Under the pieces are notes generated by a model. That model ran no database searches, was not told where the DNA came from, and worked only from the letters and a program-made list of their open reading frames with translations. Shown here in pieces: positions 679 to 61,911 of a stretch of DNA of 64,000 bases. Each line of letters opens with the position of its first letter. Positions within the stretch are counted from its first letter, which is position 1. The stretch is taken from the NCBI GenBank assembly GCA_030432235.1, contig JAUIHT010000001.1:1240001-1304000 (forward strand). The letters run 5' to 3'. The translations under genes were made by a program, and so were the position numbers. This DNA is from Verrucomicrobiia bacterium. Lineage in GTDB: Bacteria > Verrucomicrobiota > Verrucomicrobiia > Opitutales > Cerasicoccaceae.

Positions 679-1428
679 ATGAAAAAGACACTTTTGCTTA
701 CCGCTGTAGCTACTACGGCTTTTTTCGGGGCTGCACATGGCATTTCCTTGAACTTTGTTGACGCGCCGGGTGACGTTGCCAACGGCCAGTTATACGTACC
801 GTTCAGCACGGCGACCTCCGTTCTGTTTACAGATATCGGTGGCCAGGGGTTTGACCTACGCATCTCGCAGTCGAACTTTATCGGGGCCGGTCAGATCGGC
901 AGTTTTAACAATGTGGGACCTTTTCCCAGTGTGCTGGCGACCAACGGTAACCAGAACACTATTAACTTTGAGTTCTTCGTCAGTGGCACCAGCCAGTCGG
1001 TTCGCCAAGTGGTGGAAGGCATCGAGTTCCGCTTCGAGGACGTCGACGTGTCGAATGTCATCTCCAACTTCACTACCTACAGTGTGAACGGCGTTTCTAC
1101 CGTGCAGGACTTCACCAATGCCAGCATCTTTACTCCCGACGCGGGCATGACGGTGACGACGACCGAGTTTTATTATCCCGGTGAAGACTTCACCCTCAGC
1201 GCAGGGCGTGGTATGTCGGCTGACCTGACCAGCAACCAGATTTCCGGATTCTCCTTTGACCGCTTCGGTGGTGACTCCTTTATGGCTTTCGGCCTGGGTG
1301 ACGTTACCCCGATTCCATTCAACCCCAGCCCTTTCCTTGGCTTGGGATTAGTCGGCGGATTCTTTGCCTGGCGCGTGCGCCGGGCTAAAAAAGCCACTGC
1401 TGAACAGCCGCAGGCTCAGGCGGTTTAA
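679..1428 (+). CDS. Secreted protein with IPFNPS-type exosortase sorting tail
   Basis: About 249 residues. An N-terminal signal peptide begins MKKTLLLTAVATTAFFGAAHG, so I prefer the ATG at 679 to the GTG at 661. The body is Gly/Ser/Thr/Phe-rich and beta-like, with no known domain. The tail reads TPIPFNPSPFLGLGLVGGFF, then a short hydrophobic stretch and RRAKK. This tripartite signal resembles the PFE/PF-type tails of cyanobacterial exosortase substrates more than the VPEPE tails of the other surface proteins here. The stop overlaps tail-to-tail with the stop of the convergent exosortase gene, which suggests a dedicated enzyme-substrate pair. Role: probable surface or exopolysaccharide-linked protein; the pairing is inference. 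Confidence 0.7.
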   Translation: MKKTLLLTAVATTAFFGAAHGISLNFVDAPGDVANGQLYVPFSTATSVLFTDIGGQGFDLRISQSNFIGAGQIGSFNNVGPFPSVLATNGNQNTINFEFFVSGTSQSVRQVVEGIEFRFEDVDVSNVISNFTTYSVNGVSTVQDFTNASIFTPDAGMTVTTTEFYYPGEDFTLSAGRGMSADLTSNQISGFSFDRFGGDSFMAFGLGDVTPIPFNPSPFLGLGLVGGFFAWRVRRAKKATAEQPQAQAV

Positions 1429-2342
1429 ACCAGCAGAACCCCCACACCGCCCAGCAGGCCCAAACCTGCCGGGATCAAAAAGGCCAGAAGCTGCTTCGTT
1501 GAGAGGCTCGCTTCGGGCTTTTTTTCTTGGAGCATGCGAAGAAGTGGCGGCTCGATCTGATGTCGGCCCAGGATGGCGGTCCCCAGCAAGGCGGTAATCG
1601 TGAAAAGCTCCGACCCGGCGCCTTCGTGGAAGAAATGAAACCACTTAGGCGTGTCGATGCAGAAGACAATCAGGTCCACCCGCACGATACTGACCACGAG
1701 GCCCGTAAGCAGGGCCCAGCCTGCCAGTTGCAGCCATGGTCTCGGCTTCAGGCCCATGACCAGCCCATAGCACAGGACCAGCACCGCCAAGAGCAGCATC
1801 ATTTTCAGTCCCGAGCAGGCGCCGACAACCTGCAGCGCGCCTTGCTGGGTCACAATGGTATCACCGGTGACGCGCAGCTCGTAGCCGAAATAGTACAGCA
1901 GGAACCCGGAAGTCTTTGCGATGATAACCGAGTAGCCGAGCAAGTCTTCAAGGGCCTGCTCCAGTAGCTCCACCGGAAAGGCAGCGAGAAAGCCCAGAGA
2001 AAGGAGTGTCAGCCAAAACTGTCGCTCAACGGGTGAGGGCAGGATAAGGGCCACCGCAACCGGTATCAGCAGGAGTGAGAAAAACGAGGCGCCCGGTAGC
2101 CAGAGCGAGAGCACGCCCAGGCACACCGCGACCAAGGCCAGTGCGCCGCCTGGCAGCGGGCGATCTTTGGCGTCTTGTCCTGATGCACGGTAGAGGTACA
2201 GGGCGGCGGAGGCCAGCGCCACGAGCTTGATGACCATGCGTGCTTTTTCCACCACGGTGGTGGTCTCGACCAGCGCCGGAAAGGCCATGGCAAGGACGGC
2301 TCCGGTAAGTAGGGCCAGATACGTCAGCCCACGGACGTTCAC
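1425..2342 (-). CDS. Exosortase, cyanoexosortase-like
   Basis: A 305-residue integral membrane protein with many hydrophobic segments. The three expected catalytic positions are visible: Cys176 in GACSGLKMM, Arg221 in IVRVDLIV, and a His at 236 or 239 in FHFFHEGAG. Exosortases are membrane transpeptidase-like enzymes that process C-terminal sorting signals. The GCSGLK-type active-site context resembles cyanobacterial exosortases as I recall them and differs from the EPACAGMN context of the second exosortase at 61102. The start is GTG at 2342, overlapping the stop of the HpsJ-like gene by 4 bases (GTGA), so the two are translationally coupled. Family is confident; subfamily is inferred. Confidence 0.8.
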   Translation of the reverse strand: MNVRGLTYLALLTGAVLAMAFPALVETTTVVEKARMVIKLVALASAALYLYRASGQDAKDRPLPGGALALVAVCLGVLSLWLPGASFFSLLLIPVAVALILPSPVERQFWLTLLSLGFLAAFPVELLEQALEDLLGYSVIIAKTSGFLLYYFGYELRVTGDTIVTQQGALQVVGACSGLKMMLLLAVLVLCYGLVMGLKPRPWLQLAGWALLTGLVVSIVRVDLIVFCIDTPKWFHFFHEGAGSELFTITALLGTAILGRHQIEPPLLRMLQEKKPEASLSTKQLLAFLIPAGLGLLGGVGVLLV

Positions 2343-3235
2343 TGTGCGGGAGCTTCGGCGTTTTCAGGAAGGGTTTCGTCTTCCTTTTCTTCACCGCTAT
2401 CCTGGCCGGGCTTGCGCTTTATTTTACCTGAGCGGTCGGTCTGGCGGTAGTCTTTGCTGAGCACCCAGAACATCACATACATGATGCCACCAATCAGAGC
2501 GGTAATCGACCACTTGATGCCGTCGCGGATGGCGCCCTCGCGGTACCGCGAGGCCTCGTCCTTGAGGGTGACGCTGGTGCTGTCAGTGATTTCTACCAGC
2601 TTTTCTTTGAGTGCTTCGCGCAGGGCAACGGCGTTCTTTTCCTCGCGGTAAAGCTGATTGGACAGATTGAGCGGCTCCAGATAGGCGGCCATTTCCTGAG
2701 GCGTTTGCAGCTGGTCGAGGGTATCGATGGCTTCCTTCACGGCGCGATCACGCTCATGGATGAGCCCCGCCGCGCGGAACTCCGCCCAGTTGACGATGCG
2801 TACGGTATTGCGGACGCTCAGCGGTACCAGCAGCAGGAAAAAGATACCCAGGATCAGTGCGAGCCATGAGCACACGATGCGGACGCGCAGCATGCGCGCG
2901 CCAATGCTCGGCGAGAGTGGCACCAGGATGAGTGCCAGCCCGAAGGCAGGCCCCCACAGGTTATTGACCAGACGGCCCACGGTGAGCATTTCCCACTGAG
3001 TGTCCGTCCACTTCATCGGCGAGACGATGTAGGCCAGATCCAGCAGCCCGAGCACCAGCAGGGTGAAGCCCAGCATGGTCAGCACGCTCTGGAGGCGTGA
3101 GAAGTTCTCCGTGCGCAGACGTATCTGCTCGGGGACTTTTTTGCGCGTCGCGTCGGACCGCATTTGCGCACGCTCGCGGTTCTTACGCCATTTTCGGCGC
3201 AGCTTTTTAAAGGGACCACTTTTGGAAGAACTCAC
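2339..3235 (-). CDS. HpsJ-like exosortase-associated membrane protein
   Basis: 298 residues. A basic N-terminus is followed by hydrophobic segments at roughly residues 50-72, 90-110 and 118-142, a soluble helical region to about 220, a last membrane segment near 222-245, and a charged tail. The layout (a membrane domain with YIVSPMKWTDTQWEM, a helical loop, a final TM) resembles the HpsJ family found beside cyanobacterial exosortases. That match is from memory and was not searched. GTG start at 3235. It is coupled by a 4-base overlap to the exosortase downstream, which supports a partner or assembly role for it. Confidence 0.6.
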   Translation of the reverse strand: MSSSKSGPFKKLRRKWRKNRERAQMRSDATRKKVPEQIRLRTENFSRLQSVLTMLGFTLLVLGLLDLAYIVSPMKWTDTQWEMLTVGRLVNNLWGPAFGLALILVPLSPSIGARMLRVRIVCSWLALILGIFFLLLVPLSVRNTVRIVNWAEFRAAGLIHERDRAVKEAIDTLDQLQTPQEMAAYLEPLNLSNQLYREEKNAVALREALKEKLVEITDSTSVTLKDEASRYREGAIRDGIKWSITALIGGIMYVMFWVLSKDYRQTDRSGKIKRKPGQDSGEEKEDETLPENAEAPAQ

Positions 3236-6063: not shown

Positions 6064-6741
6064 ATGAAGCAAAACATACCCGCCAAGGCGGCTACCGCTG
6101 CCGGTACGCTCACTTCGCTCATCGCGGCTTCCTCGGCCCACGGGATCATCGTGGCCGGGCAGTCCTTCTTTTACGATGGCAGCGGGGTGGTCAACTGGAG
6201 CGTGGACGGCACGGATAGCGATTTTAAAATCGGCGTGGAAATCGAGAGCAGCGTGAGCCCGACGACGAATTACCATGCCGTTGTATCCATGGTGGGCGTG
6301 CTCTCCGGCAACCAGATGGCCGGGAACGCCCTCGCCATGGCCCGGCCTGCCAGTGGCGCAGTCATAGACAGTCTCTATGGGTTCAATGCGGCATCGATCG
6401 CCGCCACGCGCTCGACAACCGCCTCTTCGACGAACGTCAGTCAGACGTATCGGCTGGAGAAATTCACGAAGGCCGAACCCGGCAAGATAGGTTTCAAATT
6501 TACCCGCAATGGCGGTACGGAAACCTACTACGGCTACGCGGACTTCGTCTACGAGGTATCCTCCGGTCTGGGCAGTACCTTTGGTTACATCGGCCTGAGT
6601 AACGTTTACTACAACAACGAGGCCGGACAGGGCATCACCGTGGGCGCCGTGCCCGAGCCGGAAGTTGCCGTCACCGCCCTGGGCACGCTCGCCCTTGGCG
6701 CTGCGGGCCTGTGCCGCTGGCGCAAACGTAAGGCCGCATAA
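6064..6741 (+). CDS. PEP-CTERM sorting domain protein
   Basis: 225 residues. The N-terminal segment (AATAAGTLTSLIAASSAHG) serves as a signal peptide. The middle contains a YYGYADFVYEV beta segment shared in style with the neighbour at 6942. The C-terminal signal is VPEPEVAVTALGTLALGAAG followed by LCRWRKRKAA: motif, TM helix and basic tail. Exported and predicted to be processed by an exosortase, likely the one at 61102. Function of the mature domain unknown. A paralogue of the convergent gene 6942-7652. Confidence 0.8.
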   Translation: MKQNIPAKAATAAGTLTSLIAASSAHGIIVAGQSFFYDGSGVVNWSVDGTDSDFKIGVEIESSVSPTTNYHAVVSMVGVLSGNQMAGNALAMARPASGAVIDSLYGFNAASIAATRSTTASSTNVSQTYRLEKFTKAEPGKIGFKFTRNGGTETYYGYADFVYEVSSGLGSTFGYIGLSNVYYNNEAGQGITVGAVPEPEVAVTALGTLALGAAGLCRWRKRKAA

Positions 6742-6941: not shown

Positions 6942-7652
6942 TTACGCGGTCTTGCGCTTACGCCAGCGGCACAGGCCAGCGGCCCCGAGGGCCAGTGCGC
7001 CCAGGCCGACGGCGGTTGTTTGTGCCTCGGGGATTTCACTCGTAGTTCCGGCCAGGATGCCGTCGCTGTCGGAATAGGTCACATTGGTGAAGCTTAGGCT
7101 GAAATCATCGGCTGTGCCTTGCCAGGTGGCGTTTGCCCACCCGTAGTAAGTGCCGGAGGCTCCGGCGAAGCGGAAGCCGATGATTTCATTGGTGCCACTA
7201 TTGACACCAAAGAGGTTGATCATCGCATAACTGGCAGCGCGTAGTGCCGCGAAGGACTGGCCAAAGGTGAGAAAGGAGGTGAAAGTGGTGGCAGTTGATT
7301 GGGCGTAGAAGCTACTCTTGAAGTTAAGCCCGGCGCTGGCAGACAGGGGATCGCCGGTTGCCAGCAGCTTCATTTTTCCAGCACTGGTGGCGAATGCTAT
7401 CGCTCCTGAGCTATTGTAAATGCTGACCGTGCCATAGGCCGTGATGCTGTAACTAGAGGTAGTGCCCGCCGTGGAAAGGCTACGGTTAATCCCAAAGCTG
7501 GAGTCATTTCCGTCCAGAGACCAGGTCGTGACATCGGAGGCATCGTAGGCCGTGATGCCGACATTCAGGTCCGGCCCTAACCCAATGGCGGCAAATGCGG
7601 AACTGGAAGCGCCCAGAAGCGGGGCGAGTGAAGTAAGGGCAGTTTTTTTCAT
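6942..7652 (-). CDS. PEP-CTERM-like surface protein with IPEAQ motif
   Basis: 236 residues. Signal-like N-terminus (LTSLAPLLGASSSAFA) and the same general layout as 6064-6741, including a TYYGWANATW segment and an identical LALGAAGLCRWRKRK tail. The sorting motif reads IPEAQ rather than VPEPE, so the second Pro of PEP is Ala. Whether an exosortase still accepts it is unclear. Probably a paralogue produced by local duplication and inversion. Confidence 0.75.
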   Translation of the reverse strand: MKKTALTSLAPLLGASSSAFAAIGLGPDLNVGITAYDASDVTTWSLDGNDSSFGINRSLSTAGTTSSYSITAYGTVSIYNSSGAIAFATSAGKMKLLATGDPLSASAGLNFKSSFYAQSTATTFTSFLTFGQSFAALRAASYAMINLFGVNSGTNEIIGFRFAGASGTYYGWANATWQGTADDFSLSFTNVTYSDSDGILAGTTSEIPEAQTTAVGLGALALGAAGLCRWRKRKTA

Positions 7653-11901: not shown

Positions 11902-12555
11902 CTAGGTCGCTTGACGGCCATTGCGCCAGCGGCGCAGTCCGGCGACGCCGAGGGCTAGCCCGGCCAGACCGACGGCGGCGGTTTCAGGCTCGGGAACGGC
12001 GCCGGCCTGAATAGGAGCACCGGTGTCTTCGTAGGCCCAACTCACTACTTCGAAAGAGGAGCTATTGAGTTGAGCTGTAATGATGATTTTCGCCCAGCCA
12101 TACGCGGAAATGAAGTTCGAGCCACCCGTGTCGTAGTCAAAAGTGAAGCCAACAAAGCTGGGAACACCTGAGTCGAAGCTGGCACCAAGCCGCACCGCTG
12201 TATCCATCTGAGCATTACGCACGACAGTAGCGGTACCAATACCGAAATAATCGGTACTATTCACTGATGAACCTGAATTGACTTTAACAATAGGTCCAGC
12301 ACCGGGGCCTTCAGTGACAAAGAAGGTCCCGAAACCGAGTTGGACATTGTTACCGCTGTTGAAGACAGTGATGAATGCTTCGTTGCTGCCTTGGTTATCG
12401 ACATTCCAATCTACGCTTCCGCTCGCATCGACGACGGTGAAGCCGCTCAAGCCCAAATTAGTGTTGGTAACGATGGCTGCGGTGGCGCCCGAAGTGGCAA
12501 TGAGTGACGCAACGGAGCTACCGGCAATTTTACGTAGGTTGTTTGTATCAGACAT
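11902..12555 (-). CDS. PEP-CTERM sorting domain protein
   Basis: 217 residues. The N-terminus KIAGSSVASLIATSGATAA acts as an export signal. The mature part is beta-like, with TNTNLGLSGFTVVDASGSVDW, a segment closely echoed in the protein at 13963-14616 (TNTDLGLSGFKVGDGG), so the two are paralogues. The tail is VPEPETAAVGLAGLALGVAG then LRRWRNGRQAT. Surface protein predicted to be processed by exosortase; function unknown. It has its own terminator. Confidence 0.8.
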   Translation of the reverse strand: MSDTNNLRKIAGSSVASLIATSGATAAIVTNTNLGLSGFTVVDASGSVDWNVDNQGSNEAFITVFNSGNNVQLGFGTFFVTEGPGAGPIVKVNSGSSVNSTDYFGIGTATVVRNAQMDTAVRLGASFDSGVPSFVGFTFDYDTGGSNFISAYGWAKIIITAQLNSSSFEVVSWAYEDTGAPIQAGAVPEPETAAVGLAGLALGVAGLRRWRNGRQAT

Positions 12556-13019: not shown

Positions 13020-13904
13020 ATGAGAAATACCCCCCTAAAACTCTCGTCCTTATTTTCGAATCATCTCTTCCCCGGATTGCTTGCCTGCGGTGCGATGCTG
13101 TTAGGCTTTGCTGGGCGAGCGGATGCGACCCTTTTGGCCTACGAAGGTTTTGATACTCCGGGTCAGTATACGGCTGGCGCAACGTTAGACACTGCCAATG
13201 GTGGCACAGGCTGGACTGGCGCCTGGAGTTCGGAAGCTTCAGTTACTACAGAGTTAAATTCTGTGGCCTATCCTGATTTGGTCGAAACGTCCGGTCACAT
13301 GCTCACGACCAATGGCGATCCTTCCTCGAGCCGCCGCAGCTTTGATGAAACCGGGTTCCAGAACCTTGGCGACGAGGTATGGTTTGCTTACACCTTTAAC
13401 CGGGAAAGCGGTTCGAACAATCACAACGTTTATATTACGTTGTCGGGTTCCTCGACTCGTTTCTTCGGACTACGGACCGAAAACAGTCCTTCCACCGAGC
13501 TGAATGCGGCCATTCGTTTTGCTGGATCGACGGTTGAGAAATCCAGCACCGCTTACACCATTGCGAACAGTACCGACTACTTCGTTATTGGTCGTATGAC
13601 CTTCGACGATGTTGGTAACGACCGCCTCGATGTCTGGGTCAATCCATCCGACTTCACTTCCGTCGCCAATCTAGGTGCGGAAAGCATGTTTGTTGAAACC
13701 GCCAATCCGACACCCGGTAATTTCACCGATGTCTGGATTGCAGATGGCAACGCAGCGTCTTATGCCTTCGACGAAATCCGTATAGGCAATACCTTGGGTG
13801 ATGTAGCCCCCAGTTCAGTACCGGAGCCGGTAACCTCTGCAATGGTGTTCGGCTTCGTGATTGCGCTCGGTGCGATTGCGTATCGCCGCCGGATGCGGAA
13901 ATAG
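13020..13904 (+). CDS. PEP-CTERM protein with concanavalin/LamG-like body
   Basis: 294 residues. Signal peptide region LFPGLLACGAMLLGFAGRADA. The mature protein starts LLAYEGFDTPGQYTAG and contains NGGTGWTGAWS and a late YAFDEIRIGNTLGDVAP, a pattern I associate with LamG/concanavalin-like verrucomicrobial PEP-CTERM proteins. The tail is VPEPVTSAMVFGFVIALGA then YRRRMRK. It may bind carbohydrate at the surface, which is inference. A good terminator follows at 13932. Confidence 0.78.
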   Translation: MRNTPLKLSSLFSNHLFPGLLACGAMLLGFAGRADATLLAYEGFDTPGQYTAGATLDTANGGTGWTGAWSSEASVTTELNSVAYPDLVETSGHMLTTNGDPSSSRRSFDETGFQNLGDEVWFAYTFNRESGSNNHNVYITLSGSSTRFFGLRTENSPSTELNAAIRFAGSTVEKSSTAYTIANSTDYFVIGRMTFDDVGNDRLDVWVNPSDFTSVANLGAESMFVETANPTPGNFTDVWIADGNAASYAFDEIRIGNTLGDVAPSSVPEPVTSAMVFGFVIALGAIAYRRRMRK

Positions 13905-13931: not shown

Positions 13932-13964
13932 ATGCCGTGCAGCTTTGGCTGTACGGCATTTTTT
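13932..13964 (+). terminator. Rho-independent terminator
   Basis: The stem ATGCCGTGCAGC pairs with GGCTGTACGGCAT across a short loop and is followed by a run of T on the plus strand. It terminates the gene ending at 13904 and abuts the stop of the convergent gene at 13963. Confidence 0.8.
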
Positions 13965-14616
13965 ATGCTCTCCTTTTGCGCCAGCGACGCAGGCCCGCCG
14001 CGCCCATCGCCAGCCCGGCCAGGCCGAGGGCGGTGGTGGCGGGCTCGGGCACGTGGATGGGATCGCCGGAGTCGTCATAGGCCCATTCGAGCACTTCAAA
14101 GGTGCCAAAATTGCCCGGTGATTCGGTCAGGCGAATACGTGCCCAGCCGAAAAGCTCCGTGCCAAGCGGATTGAATTTGAACCCGATGTAGGCAGGCATG
14201 CCATCGAAGATATTCGAAACATAGCCCAGCGAGCCGCTGATCAGAATACCGGCGAACGAACTGCCGGTGAAAGCCAGCAGGCTATTGGAAACCGTTACGC
14301 TCTTAGGTAGGCCGACTACGTAACTCGCACTGTTGGTGTCGTTGACGAGCACCTTGAAGTCGTTCTGAAAGTTGTACAGATCGATGAACTTGGAGCCGCA
14401 GGTGCAGGTGAAGGTCTCCACCAAGAGCTCGGCGGCGCCACTGTTGTCAATGTTCCATGCCATGGAACTCAGTCCACCATCCCCGACCTTGAAGCCGCTC
14501 AGGCCCAGATCGGTATTGGTGATAATGGTTCCAGTGGCACTGGAAGCTGCCAGTAGGGACGTGATTGTGCCTATGGAGGCAGTGTGTTTGGTAGTAGTAG
14601 GGAATACGATTTTCAT
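13963..14616 (-). CDS. PEP-CTERM sorting domain protein
   Basis: 217 residues. N-terminal export segment SIGTITSLLAASSATGTII. The body has a CTCGS segment with two cysteines and the LGLSGFKV motif shared with the paralogue at 11902. The tail is VPEPATTALGLAGLAMGAAG then LRRWRKRRA. Predicted exosortase substrate at the cell surface; function unknown. Confidence 0.8.
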   Translation of the reverse strand: MKIVFPTTTKHTASIGTITSLLAASSATGTIITNTDLGLSGFKVGDGGLSSMAWNIDNSGAAELLVETFTCTCGSKFIDLYNFQNDFKVLVNDTNSASYVVGLPKSVTVSNSLLAFTGSSFAGILISGSLGYVSNIFDGMPAYIGFKFNPLGTELFGWARIRLTESPGNFGTFEVLEWAYDDSGDPIHVPEPATTALGLAGLAMGAAGLRRWRKRRA

Positions 14617-14699: not shown

Positions 14700-15665
14700 T
14701 CAAACTGCCTGTTTGGCTTTTCGCCAGCGGCGTAGCCCGGCGACACCAAAGGCTAGCCCAGCCAAACTGAGGACGGCGGTTTCCGGCTCGGGGACAGTGG
14801 TGCCCTGCACGATGCGGAAGCCCAAGGTTTGTTGGGTTAAGCCGATTTGCGCGAGCCCTGCAGTGGAAGCCCAGGATTCCTGCGCGTTTTTCGTATAACT
14901 GCCACCCATGGTAAGGGTATTATTCGGAAACTCCACGATGATGGTTTCCGTCCACTCGAAGGCGTTACCCATTTGATCGTAAGTGCCGTAGTAATTGGGT
15001 ATCGAGTAGCCGACAGTGGCCAGTGCGCCAGGGTTCAGGTCATCTCCCGCGACGTAGTTGGACTCGTCGCCTGCGGGAGCGGTGTTACTGCTGGTGGCGT
15101 AGTCCCAGTAACCGTCGGTGTCGCCTCCGTCGCTGGCCGGTTGATAGAAGGCGGCCTTGTACCATTCATACAGCGTGGGGATGGCGTAGCCTCCGTTCTG
15201 ATAAGCGATGTTATTACGTGTAATGGAGCCGTGCTCGGGGGCAGCGACGCCATTCAGTGCATAGACGCCCGTCTCGGTGTCGCCGGTCGTGAGCCAGTTG
15301 ACGAAACGCATGGCGCTGTAGATGGAGATTTTCGTGACGGGCAGGTCCGGCGTGGTGGTTGAATAGGTGTAAGCCCCGTCCGACCCGCTTCGGGTAACGT
15401 TGATAGCGGTGCCGAGCGCGTAGGGATCGCTGGTTGCGACGGCGTTGAGAAACTCCACGTACTGGCCCACGGTCACCTCGTAAGTGCCGATGTTGTACTG
15501 ATAATTGACCGCTCCGGGCGTATAAGGATCCCAGGCAGGATTCGCATCGCCGGGATTACCGACGTTACCAATCGTGACCATCTGCATGTCGACGGCAGGA
15601 TAGGCGGTGGAGGCTGCTAAGATGCTTAAGGTGAGCGTAATGTATTTCGTGAGTGTTGGCTTCAT
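14700..15665 (-). CDS. SUMF1/FGE-fold PEP-CTERM protein
   Basis: About 321 residues from the ATG at 15665 (MKPTLTKYITLTLSILAAST is a signal peptide). The middle has the formylglycine-generating-enzyme fold signature: YNIGTYEVTVGQYVEFLNAV, LPVTKISIYSAMRFVNWL, YAIPTLYEWYKAAFY, DQMGNAFEWTET and a GFRIV end. No Cys pair of the kind used for copper and catalysis in true FGE is visible, so it probably uses the fold for binding rather than sulfatase activation. The tail is VPEPETAVLSLAGLAFGVAG then LRRWRKAKQAV. Confidence 0.8.
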   Translation of the reverse strand: MKPTLTKYITLTLSILAASTAYPAVDMQMVTIGNVGNPGDANPAWDPYTPGAVNYQYNIGTYEVTVGQYVEFLNAVATSDPYALGTAINVTRSGSDGAYTYSTTTPDLPVTKISIYSAMRFVNWLTTGDTETGVYALNGVAAPEHGSITRNNIAYQNGGYAIPTLYEWYKAAFYQPASDGGDTDGYWDYATSSNTAPAGDESNYVAGDDLNPGALATVGYSIPNYYGTYDQMGNAFEWTETIIVEFPNNTLTMGGSYTKNAQESWASTAGLAQIGLTQQTLGFRIVQGTTVPEPETAVLSLAGLAFGVAGLRRWRKAKQAV

Positions 15666-15839
15666 GTTGTCAGCTATTTGTTTTTTCCCGAGTATGCCAG
15701 TAAGTGGTCGCTTATTCGTATTCTTCATTTGAATCGGGACCATTTTAGCCGAGAGGAGATGACAATTTGATGAAAGCGGGATGGTGTTTTTAGTTTCTTT
15801 TCGGGCTGCTATCGGAAGTTTGCTTCAAAAAGTTGAACG

Positions 15840-58277: not shown

Positions 58278-59111
58278 ATGAAAACCTACCCGATTCTAAT
58301 GACCGTATGCTGCCTGGTTGGCGGCGAATTGTTGGCCCAGACCGAGCTGAAGGTGCAGTCCGATGCGCGCCCTTACGATTTGGATATTGTTGCCCCGGTG
58401 ATGCAGGCTGGTTCCGATGAGGCCTCGGCGGAATTTCAGGCAGAAGTGCTGCCGGATATGCTGGATTTCATCGATGCCAACTTGAGTGAAACGCAGACCG
58501 TATCGAATCTATCATCGATCACGCTCGACCCCTCCAAGCTCTATCTGGCCAACGACGCCAACGTTCGGGTTTACTTCCTCGGGGAAGGCGCGGGTTATCA
58601 CAATACCCTGGGGTTCAACACCGATGGTGCTTCCATTTACGACGGCGATCCGTTCCTGATTTTTCCCGACGCCTCCAGCATCGACAGTTACTATCCTTAC
58701 GGAGACAGCACGACCTGGCGCAACCGGAGCGCCCCGCTGTTGCCGGGCGACTTCGTGGACTTGGGAACGTTTTCCGCAGGCACGCAACTGGACTTCTTCC
58801 TGATTGCGGATGGGGCCAACGGCGGCTCCAACATCTGGTCCACTGATGCTTCCGTCAACGCGGACGGGCTCGTGCATACCGTCAGTCTGGCCCAGCCGGG
58901 CAGTCCGTATTTGCTCATCGGGTTTGAGGACCTCTGGGGCGGCGGTGACAAAGACTACAACGACCTGCTGTTTGCCGTCGATATCGGTGCGGCCAATGTC
59001 TCCTACTTGGCCAATCCCGAGCCCTCGACCTGGCTCATCATGGCACTATTGGCCGCCGGGGTCGTTTATGCATCCCGGATGCGTCCCCAGTCGGTGCCGG
59101 TCAGCGCCTGA
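58278..59111 (+). CDS. DUF4114 PEP-CTERM protein
   Basis: 277 residues. Signal peptide MKTYPILMTVCCLVGGELLA. The C-terminal half carries a DUF4114 domain: DFFLIADGANGG and the hallmark FEDLWGGGDKDYNDLLFAVD, a likely calcium-binding turn. The tail is NPEPSTWLIMALLAAGVVYA with SRMRPQ. It lies inside the exopolysaccharide operon, so it is the best candidate for a substrate of the exosortase at 61102 and for a protein that meets the polymer outside the cell. Confidence 0.83.
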   Translation: MKTYPILMTVCCLVGGELLAQTELKVQSDARPYDLDIVAPVMQAGSDEASAEFQAEVLPDMLDFIDANLSETQTVSNLSSITLDPSKLYLANDANVRVYFLGEGAGYHNTLGFNTDGASIYDGDPFLIFPDASSIDSYYPYGDSTTWRNRSAPLLPGDFVDLGTFSAGTQLDFFLIADGANGGSNIWSTDASVNADGLVHTVSLAQPGSPYLLIGFEDLWGGGDKDYNDLLFAVDIGAANVSYLANPEPSTWLIMALLAAGVVYASRMRPQSVPVSA

Positions 59112-59197: not shown

Positions 59198-61105
59198 ATG
59201 TCGAAACTGCTCCTCCGGCTATCTGTCGCGTTACTGATATTGGTAGTTCTGGTTGGCGCGCTGTGGGGCTGGAGAGAGCATACTTTAAAACGCCTGAGTG
59301 AGAAAACACAGGCTGAGCTTGCCACCGCCTGGGAGAATGGAGACCTGGCCAAGGCACGGATTCTGGCGGGCCATTTGGAGGATCCGGAGCAACAGTATGC
59401 CTGGGGGCAGAAATTACTGGAAGCCGAAGCAGCCAAGGCAGTCGAGCGTAATGACGCTGCTGCGCTGCGTCAGATAATCAGTCAGAATCCACAACGAAGC
59501 CTTACCGAAGATGAGGCGCTGCTACTCGCACGGGCAGCCATGCATGAGCGCGATGCGCGTACTTATGAATCGATGACCGCATCCTGGCGTGACCGGCAAT
59601 CGCAACCGGCGCAGTGGGTATTTCTGGAAGCTGCTGCGCTCACCATCCAGGGCCAAGCGGCCGAAGCAAAAGCCGTTCTGGAGGCTCAAAAATTCCAGGG
59701 GCGGGATGAATCCAATCGCCTGTTGAGACTGGCCTTGCTTTCGACGGACCAACCACTGGTGAGTATGGAACTGGTGAACGAGGCCATTGCCGTGGCGCCG
59801 GAGCATGCCGATGCGCTTTCATTCCGCGCCCAGATATTGGAGCGGTTGCGACGCTGGCCGGAGGCGCGGGCGGATTACGTACGCGCGGTCGCGCTCGATT
59901 CCACCAGTCCGCTTTTCTGGGATCAACTGGCCGGCTTTTATCAACGACGTCAGCAATACCTCGATGCGGTGCAAACCTGGCAGGACGGTTATGAGAAAAC
60001 CGGTGTCGCGGAATTCTGGCTGAAAGCCTGGTTCTGGAAAAAAGTAACCGGGTATGGGGAAAGCATGTCGCCACCGCCCGAACACGGTTTTTATGCGGAA
60101 TTTGCCGGGTACCTGAATCGACTCGAGCCTGGCCTCTGGTGGGATGAGGCGACGTTTTCCAGCGTCGCCTTTGCCAGCCGTATCCTGGAGCAGCGGCAGG
60201 AAACGTTCTGGCTGCGTCTGCTGCAATGGCTGCAGGATGATCAGGATGCCGAGGCGATGCGCCTGCTCTCCAGCGATCCATTTGCGCGCAAGTCGTGGGC
60301 GCCGTGGCTGAAGGATGCCTTGCGAACGATCCTTCTCTGGCGGGCGGAACAGATTCCGTTGAATGCCGGATCGTTGTCCTCGGGTGAGGAGCGGCATCAG
60401 TTCTATGGATTGCTGGCCCGGCTTGGTGATGTCCAGGAGCCGTACCCCGCGATGAAACATCTGCTGGAATCCCGGAACGCCTGGGCGGCGGCGTTTTTGG
60501 CGGAGGGCTGGCTGGCCGCGGCCATTCAGTTTGACCAGCCGGACGGTGCGGCGCTGCCGGGTTGGTATGACTATGGTCAGGTGCAGGCGCGGCGACTGGT
60601 GGAAACCAATACCGCCGCATTAGAACGCCTGCCGAGAATACTCAACAGTGACGAAATCCCGTTGCTGGCGGTGGAGATTTATTTGGCGGAGGGCCAATTG
60701 GCAAAGGCGGAGTCTTCTCTGGTTGCGTTAGCAGGCGAGGAAGGCGCCGTCGCCGAGCGCGCGGCCTGGCTGTTGGCCCAACTGCTGTATGAGAGCAACC
60801 GGCTTGACGAATTGCGGGTGCTTCTCTCCGAAAACGCCGCTCTTGCTTCCAGCCTAGCAGGGCAACAGCTGCAGGCTCGCCTGGCATTGCTGGATGGCCG
60901 TTTTCAGGAGGCGGTCGGCATTTACGAAACCATTGCGGACGAGTCGTTCGAGGCGAAGGTATTCTTGTCACGGCTGGCTTTTCAACAAAAGCAGTGGGAG
61001 CGCGCTCGTGAGTTGACCGAGCAGCTGATCGCGCTCCAACCGGACGAACCTATTTTCTATCGTAACCTCAGAGCCATCAACGAGGCGGAAGGGCTGCAAC
61101 CATGA
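59198..61105 (+). CDS. TPR-repeat membrane-anchored protein of the exosortase locus
   Basis: 635 residues. An N-terminal TM helix (LSVALLILVVLVGALWGW) is followed by a long all-alpha, Ala/Leu/Glu-rich region with TPR-like units (ALSFRAQILERLRRWPEARA, DQLAGFYQRRQQYLDAVQTW, FLSRLAFQQKQWERARELTE). TPR proteins of this kind are common beside exosortase genes and are thought to scaffold polymer export. The stop overlaps the exosortase ATG by 4 bases (ATGA). Confidence 0.8.
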   Translation: MSKLLLRLSVALLILVVLVGALWGWREHTLKRLSEKTQAELATAWENGDLAKARILAGHLEDPEQQYAWGQKLLEAEAAKAVERNDAAALRQIISQNPQRSLTEDEALLLARAAMHERDARTYESMTASWRDRQSQPAQWVFLEAAALTIQGQAAEAKAVLEAQKFQGRDESNRLLRLALLSTDQPLVSMELVNEAIAVAPEHADALSFRAQILERLRRWPEARADYVRAVALDSTSPLFWDQLAGFYQRRQQYLDAVQTWQDGYEKTGVAEFWLKAWFWKKVTGYGESMSPPPEHGFYAEFAGYLNRLEPGLWWDEATFSSVAFASRILEQRQETFWLRLLQWLQDDQDAEAMRLLSSDPFARKSWAPWLKDALRTILLWRAEQIPLNAGSLSSGEERHQFYGLLARLGDVQEPYPAMKHLLESRNAWAAAFLAEGWLAAAIQFDQPDGAALPGWYDYGQVQARRLVETNTAALERLPRILNSDEIPLLAVEIYLAEGQLAKAESSLVALAGEEGAVAERAAWLLAQLLYESNRLDELRVLLSENAALASSLAGQQLQARLALLDGRFQEAVGIYETIADESFEAKVFLSRLAFQQKQWERARELTEQLIALQPDEPIFYRNLRAINEAEGLQP

Positions 61106-61911
61106 GCTCCCGGCTGGCTAGAACACTGACCGGGCTTGTGCTTGCGGGGCTGCTCCTTGTCGTTTGGACGCGGCCCTACCTGCGAGCAATACCGTACGCT
61201 GACAGTCTGCCACTTTTGGCGGGAGCCGTTTTCGCCTGGTGGATTGGCCGCCCGTGGTGCGCGCAAGAGCGTGACGAAAAAGCCCCGGCGGGCTTGCTGG
61301 TCGCGGGCTTGCTGGTATTTGTGGCCGGATTGATCGGACAGCTACTTGTTCTACTGGCGGCGGGCTGGTCGCTGCTGCTTTACGCCTGGGTGAGTCACTA
61401 TTGGGGCAGGCCTCGCTACGGGCCCCAGTGGCTGTTGTTGGTTTTCTTTTCCTTTCCCTGGTTGGCGGTCGATTTCTCTGCGCTGGGATGGTGGTTTCGT
61501 CTTACAGGAGCCCGTGTGACCGAATGGTTCTTCGGTGGCCTGGGTTTTTCAATCTTGCGGGATGGCACGATGCTGAACCTGCACGGGTTGCCGATTGCCA
61601 TTGAGCCCGCCTGCGCCGGAATGAACCTGCTGCCGGCGTTACTCCTGGCCGGGACAGCTGTGGGCCTGCTGGCCTTGGGAGGGACAAACCGCTTTTGGTT
61701 TTTCCTCCTGCTCCTACCTGCACTGGCCTGGCTGGCCAACACCGTTCGCATCGTGGTTATCAGTGCGGTCGCGCTGACTTGGGGGGCAACCTTTGCCAGC
61801 GGTTTCTTCCATACCTGGGGCGCACTGCTCGTACTCGGCGCCATGTTTTGCGGATGCCTCGTACTCGCGCGAGTCTTCCAAACCAAAACCGCTGCGGCCC
61901 TTCATGAGTGA
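61102..61911 (+). CDS. Exosortase
   Basis: 269 residues with about eight hydrophobic helices. Catalytic Cys171 in IEPACAGMNLL, Arg216 in LANTVRIVVIS and His237 in SGFFHTWGALL, exactly the exosortase triad order. It should process the VPEPE-type tails of the PEP-CTERM proteins in the window. It lies in a tight run TPR-exosortase-small membrane protein-EpsI-ligase, and overlaps the next gene by 8 bases. Confidence 0.93.
   Translation: MSSRLARTLTGLVLAGLLLVVWTRPYLRAIPYADSLPLLAGAVFAWWIGRPWCAQERDEKAPAGLLVAGLLVFVAGLIGQLLVLLAAGWSLLLYAWVSHYWGRPRYGPQWLLLVFFSFPWLAVDFSALGWWFRLTGARVTEWFFGGLGFSILRDGTMLNLHGLPIAIEPACAGMNLLPALLLAGTAVGLLALGGTNRFWFFLLLLPALAWLANTVRIVVISAVALTWGATFASGFFHTWGALLVLGAMFCGCLVLARVFQTKTAAALHE

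Follow-up and report, generated by a model that had tools for sequence, protein, structure and literature searches.

The three genes at positions 679-3235 of the window, that is, of the whole 64,000-nucleotide stretch that was analysed, probably constitute a dedicated protein-sorting module of the cyanoexosortase-A type in which the HpsJ-like protein would serve as a cargo partner. The PFE-CTERM name and the link of HpsJ with cyanoexosortase A (CrtA) are already in NCBIfam, and what is new is the form seen in Verrucomicrobiota, in which HpsJ copies are linked to cargo. The substrate gene on the forward strand and the exosortase and HpsJ-like genes on the reverse strand were all confirmed (Table 1), in agreement with the earlier note, which had described an exosortase with GACSGLK, a coupled HpsJ-like gene and a convergent tailed gene. 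The HpsJ gene lies upstream of the exosortase gene, and its stop codon overlaps the exosortase start by 4 nt (GTGA at 2339-2342), which is the usual sign of coupled translation.

Table 1. Coordinates of the sorting locus and of the contrasting features in the window.
Feature	Positions	Strand	Details
PFE-CTERM-type substrate	679..1428	+	249 aa; PFE_CTERM 22.8 bits as protein, 25.7 in genome scan
PFE-CTERM tail	1309..1392	+	PFE_CTERM match at G000:C37:1241309-1241392
CrtA-like exosortase	1425..2342	-	305 aa; PF09721 75.2 bits; C176/R221/H239
TTAA common to the stops of the two convergent genes (substrate, exosortase)	1425..1428	.	sequence
HpsJ-like membrane protein	2339..3235	-	298 aa; HpsJ_like_A 142.1 bits; model pLDDT 85.8
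Other exosortase of the window, outside this system (contrast)	61102..61911	+	outside CrtA clade in tree
PEP-CTERM-like proteins	6064-6741, 6942-7652, 11902-12555, 13020-13904, 13963-14616, 14700-15743, 58278-59111		tail motifs

The substrate, read from the ATG at 679, had a signal-peptide-like start, MKKTLLLTAVATTAFFGAAHG. Its C-terminal tail was IPFNPSPFLGLGLVGGFFAWRVRRAKK and the protein ended in IPFNPSPFLGLGLVGGFFAWRVRRAKKATAEQPQAQAV; within the tail, IPFNPSPFLGLG was followed by a membrane helix and basic residues. The two PFE_CTERM (NF050011) scores in Table 1 lay on either side of the cut-off of 24 (E=1.1e-4 as protein). The consensus of the tail was [VI]PF-x(6)-G[LMI], followed by a short transmembrane helix and a basic cluster. 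The motif, the helix and the basic end at the C-terminus were those of PFE-CTERM, with a score at the curated cut-off, whereas N followed PF here (D, G or H in relatives) instead of E, and most PFE genes in these verrucomicrobial genomes had an adjacent HpsJ. In the single-sequence structure model of the substrate (pLDDT 34), the C-terminal helix at residues 218-238 was the only usable part. An all-against-all comparison of 23 PFE proteins gave at least four unrelated body families, and outside its own family the similarity of a protein was mostly limited to the last 30-40 residues. The window substrate grouped with an unlinked (orphan) PFE protein of genome G004, with 36% identity over the full length. 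Judged from these comparisons, the PFE tail is probably a signal rather than a family; it is common to unrelated bodies, as expected of a sorting signal. Ten PFE substrates were searched with Pfam, and no match was above the cut-off. One cargo family (III; L049, L053, L055 and L056) resembled thioester domains below threshold (PF08341, 18.2 bits, cut-off 22) and carried the motifs FC.E and AFQLALWELTHD. Another PFE-tailed protein (L059 4895-6382, G017) consisted mostly of Asp-rich DDDGKDG repeats and adjoined HpsJ.

The exosortase passed the Exosortase_EpsH model (PF09721; gathering cut-off 25.7, E=6.8e-21), and the three catalytic-type residues in Table 1 were invariant in a six-sequence alignment. 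Its best NCBIfam model was cyanoexosortase A (TIGR03763), with a score of 48.5 bits that was far under the cut-off of 150; the exosortases of the verrucomicrobial relatives reached 62-130 bits. A careful maximum-likelihood tree was calculated for 45 exosortases, with the seventh match of this genome (G000), of 184 aa, left out. The window exosortase, the enzymes of five relatives and all cyanobacterial CrtA sequences formed one clade (support 100/97). The 61-kb exosortase of the window and four other enzymes of the genome fell outside it, as did two further cyanobacterial clades that were read as CrtB- and CrtC-like by tree position, without an HMM. A topology constrained to unite the window exosortase with the 61-kb enzyme and the ortholog of the latter was rejected (p-AU 0.003). 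The phylogeny called for in the earlier note placed the two exosortases of the window in separate subfamilies, so the grouping in one subfamily that would have spoken against the note was not seen. Moreover, the window exosortase branched outside canonical CrtA and had about 35% identity even to its nearest relative. The enzyme counts as a deeply branching relative of cyanoexosortase A, not as a member by cut-off.

The other exosortase of the window is indeed distinct from the CrtA-like enzyme, as had been noted earlier, but the genome carries seven exosortase matches and not two. None of the other six had a cyanoexosortase as its best model. The five matches outside the window (G000:C42:292842, C7:182501, C37:252124, C3:402210 and C3:510964; L060-L063 and L066) included XrtA-like with an EpsI-like C-terminus, XrtW-like, XrtK-like and other types. 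The window also encodes seven PEP-CTERM-like proteins, whose tails read VPEP or similar; in one of them, IPEA takes the place of PEP. The PEP-CTERM/exosortase (EpsH) arrangement, for example that at 58-62 kb of the window, shares the superfamily and the overall plan with the CrtA-like system and differs from it in exosortase clade and tail motif. Alongside the CrtA-like system, the genome carries the six remaining exosortases and the proteins with VPEP tails, and two systems may operate in parallel.

The HpsJ-like protein passed HpsJ_like_A (NF050013) narrowly (cut-off 140, E=1.9e-41) and HpsJ_fam (NF038305) clearly (99.1 bits, cut-off 60), while three other HpsJ copies scored 133-139 bits with HpsJ_like_A, just below the cut-off. 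With HpsJ over its threshold, CrtA as the best exosortase model and PFE at its cut-off, the HMM searches were in line with the families that had been proposed. The structure model (pTM 0.72) predicted a basic cytoplasmic N-terminus and four transmembrane segments, with some 100 residues (approximately 143-240) forming a helical hairpin in the periplasm. A Foldseek search of the model against the PDB gave no match at E<=0.001. The comparison neither assigned nor excluded a fold: everything retrieved was a generic helical bundle or a pore toxin, the best with a Z of 9.5, which is in the uninformative range for helical proteins. The one mention of HpsJ found in the literature was its name in a table of genes; none of the papers found gave it a biochemical role, and none covered both exosortase and PFE-CTERM.

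The gene neighbourhoods of HpsJ were explored in six genomes, which contained 18 HpsJ genes. Six of these were directly upstream of a CrtA-like exosortase, one per genome. Ten others, one or two per genome, immediately followed a PFE cargo gene in the same orientation; no exosortase match was found at these pairs, and the gaps ranged from -59 to 200 nt, depending on the start codon. The remaining two had neither partner. Conversely, the 18 PFE genes of the six genomes, counted by scan and reading, comprised 11 with an HpsJ neighbour (one gene away in the window) and 7 without. Elsewhere in the present genome, another PFE protein is paired with an HpsJ of its own (G000:C39:350611-352294; locus L043 6612-8295); this pair has no exosortase match nearby and adjoins yidD/yidC-like genes, as in a related genus; the pair of cargo family II and HpsJ lies beside such genes, named by sequence reading, in two genera. 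The convergent PFE gene that the earlier note had taken as the exosortase's own substrate is present, but it is not the sole substrate candidate. When the copies in the HpsJ tree were labelled by partner (exosortase, cargo II or cargo III), only two label changes were needed, which is the minimum, and these partnerships thus seem to predate the divergence of the species that have them in common. The occurrence of one enzyme-linked HpsJ per genome, together with HpsJ genes behind distant cargo genes, points to HpsJ as a cargo partner. Hence, HpsJ looks like a cargo-dedicated membrane partner. A lineage with one CrtA-like exosortase and several cargo-tied HpsJ genes makes this idea directly testable.

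HpsJ may alternatively be a general accessory, such as a stabiliser of the exosortase or a link to polysaccharide export, with the cargo adjacency as a remnant of duplicated operons. This explanation is a serious contender, though a somewhat doubtful one. HpsJ accompanied the exosortase in 41 of the 49 cyanobacterial loci recovered with the exosortase profile, its name derives from the hps polysaccharide genes of Nostoc, and orphan PFE genes without HpsJ exist. However, extra HpsJ copies accompanied cargo and not the exosortase in all six genomes, and the partner-specific HpsJ clades persisted across species.

The association of HpsJ with PFE tails was evaluated across Verrucomicrobiota, with the tails counted by profile search only. 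HpsJ occurred in six of 54 relatives, and PFE tails over the cut-off occurred in the same six (Fisher 3.9e-8, a value that treats related genomes as independent). The CrtA-like exosortase profile gave strong matches (>385 bits) in these six and 37 bits for the next best; as it was built from the same six exosortases, only the negatives carry weight in that search. Its weak matches in 9 of the other 48 relatives were ordinary exosortases. Every relative found with a CrtA-like exosortase thus had PFE tails, and the absence of such tails that would have spoken against the earlier note was not seen. In an even sample of the phylum (n=288), HpsJ over the cut-off and PFE tails were again found in the same four genomes. 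This distribution also bears on the possibility that the PFE tail is a degenerate PEP-CTERM tail processed by ordinary exosortases. The two tails have the same tripartite plan, six other exosortase matches occur in the genome, and canonical cyanobacterial CrtA adjoins VPEPLTILGS tails. Nevertheless, the explanation is unlikely: the weaker PFE-model matches in the genome, PEP tails included, fitted in the helix and basic part only (11-16 bits), and PFE tails over the cut-off were absent from all 48 relatives without HpsJ, even though nine of these have the weak matches to other exosortases. The pairing of PFE tails with the CrtA-like exosortase, as one of seven matches in the genome, is putative, and so is its exclusivity.

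When 84,980 species were scanned with this profile of the exosortase, 51 loci were recovered, of which 49 were cyanobacterial and two verrucomicrobial; the scan requires short motifs, and other phyla may hold loci too. With the verrucomicrobial lineage, a sorting theme best known from cyanobacteria is extended to another phylum. In cyanobacteria, CrtA usually came first and HpsJ last; a gene of some 220 aa, putatively TIGR04153-like by its position, often stood between them, and PEP-tailed cargo often lay upstream. Compared with the cyanoexosortase A (TIGR03763) locus with HpsJ-like A and TIGR04153, the window locus has the same exosortase clade, the same HpsJ family and the same close gene linkage. 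It differs in that HpsJ is upstream of and overlaps the exosortase, in that no TIGR04153-like gene was seen adjacent in the locus gene list, and in its PFE tail in place of VPEPLTILGS. PFE tails over the cut-off were present in only 4 of 44 CrtA genomes. The earlier reading as the cyanobacterial exosortase/HpsJ/PFE-CTERM theme is supported, with corrections: HMM searches, the tree and co-occurrence agreed with it, but the exosortase scored far below the CrtA threshold and canonical CrtA loci lie beside PEP tails. Layouts similar to the verrucomicrobial ones were found within cyanobacteria, namely, a PFE substrate-HpsJ pair without an exosortase (G359), an HpsJ-exosortase pair beside PFE substrates (G356) and, in Nostoc linckia, HpsJ beside VPEPLTI cargo without an exosortase. 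The sole exosortase match (L225) of the first of these, a PFE-bearing cyanobacterial MAG, had six in-frame stops in the genome scan.

Three exosortases from PFE-bearing cyanobacterial genomes, that of Nodosilinea and that of the verrucomicrobial G017 lay outside the canonical CrtA group (99/93), and the Nostoc linckia exosortase branched near its base. The tree is compatible with the PFE form being older, with the root of the CrtA clade not fixed. A single clade of all six verrucomicrobial exosortases was not in the best tree and was not rejected (p-AU 0.089), so that there may have been one transfer or several. Tentatively, each HpsJ might be a membrane adaptor dedicated to, and inherited along with, one PFE cargo, which it would hand to an exosortase common to all; specificity would then reside in the adaptor as well as in the tail, and the PFE arrangement, in which HpsJ lies upstream, might predate the canonical cyanoexosortase A system of PEP type. 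It is very unlikely that the locus was recently acquired from cyanobacteria by horizontal transfer or that the assembly is contaminated with cyanobacterial DNA. The nearest non-verrucomicrobial relatives found were all cyanobacterial and the system is rare in the phylum (4/288), but it was present in six genomes, one of them of two contigs only, the exosortase diverged deeply, the verrucomicrobial HpsJ sequences formed one side of a branch (88/83) and the yidD/yidC-like neighbourhood of the substrate-HpsJ pair was kept in two genera. Furthermore, the contig that carries the window is 1.7 Mb long in a genome of 5.7 Mb. On these grounds both were rejected, and recent acquisition from cyanobacteria is not supported.

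In the proposed mechanism of the cargo-partner module, PFE-tailed proteins, which carry a signal peptide, would be exported by Sec, after which the helix and the basic residues at the C-terminus would keep them in the inner membrane. The CrtA-like exosortase, in which Cys, Arg and His are present, would cleave at or near the [VI]PF motif, by analogy with exosortase/archaeosortase models. HpsJ may recruit or escort particular PFE cargo to the one exosortase, and the cleaved body may be passed to the envelope or to exopolysaccharide. Alternatively, the tail might simply fix the protein in the membrane and stay uncut, for which a hydrophobic helix with a basic end would suffice. This is most unlikely, given that unrelated bodies carry the conserved [VI]PF-x(6)-G motif in company with a single exosortase type, as expected of a recognition signal. 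A fate of either release or attachment, to the envelope or to polysaccharide, has been proposed for CrtB and PEP-CTERM proteins (PMC12188702). The cyanoexosortase B of Nostoc punctiforme (PMC12188702) is a cyanobacterial exosortase tied to surface and polysaccharide functions, but the sequences read as CrtB-like are in another clade, and genetics exist only for CrtB. Against the module stand the exosortase score (48.5 versus 150), the PFE score that straddles its cut-off, the lack of a visible TIGR04153-like neighbour, the 7/18 PFE genes without HpsJ and the 2/18 HpsJ genes without a partner.

The exosortases encoded at L052 4944-6563 (G017), L105 and L137 were about 530-540 aa long and extended at the C-terminus. 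The extension of the G017 exosortase matched TIGR04153 with 54.4 bits, under the cut-off of 100.
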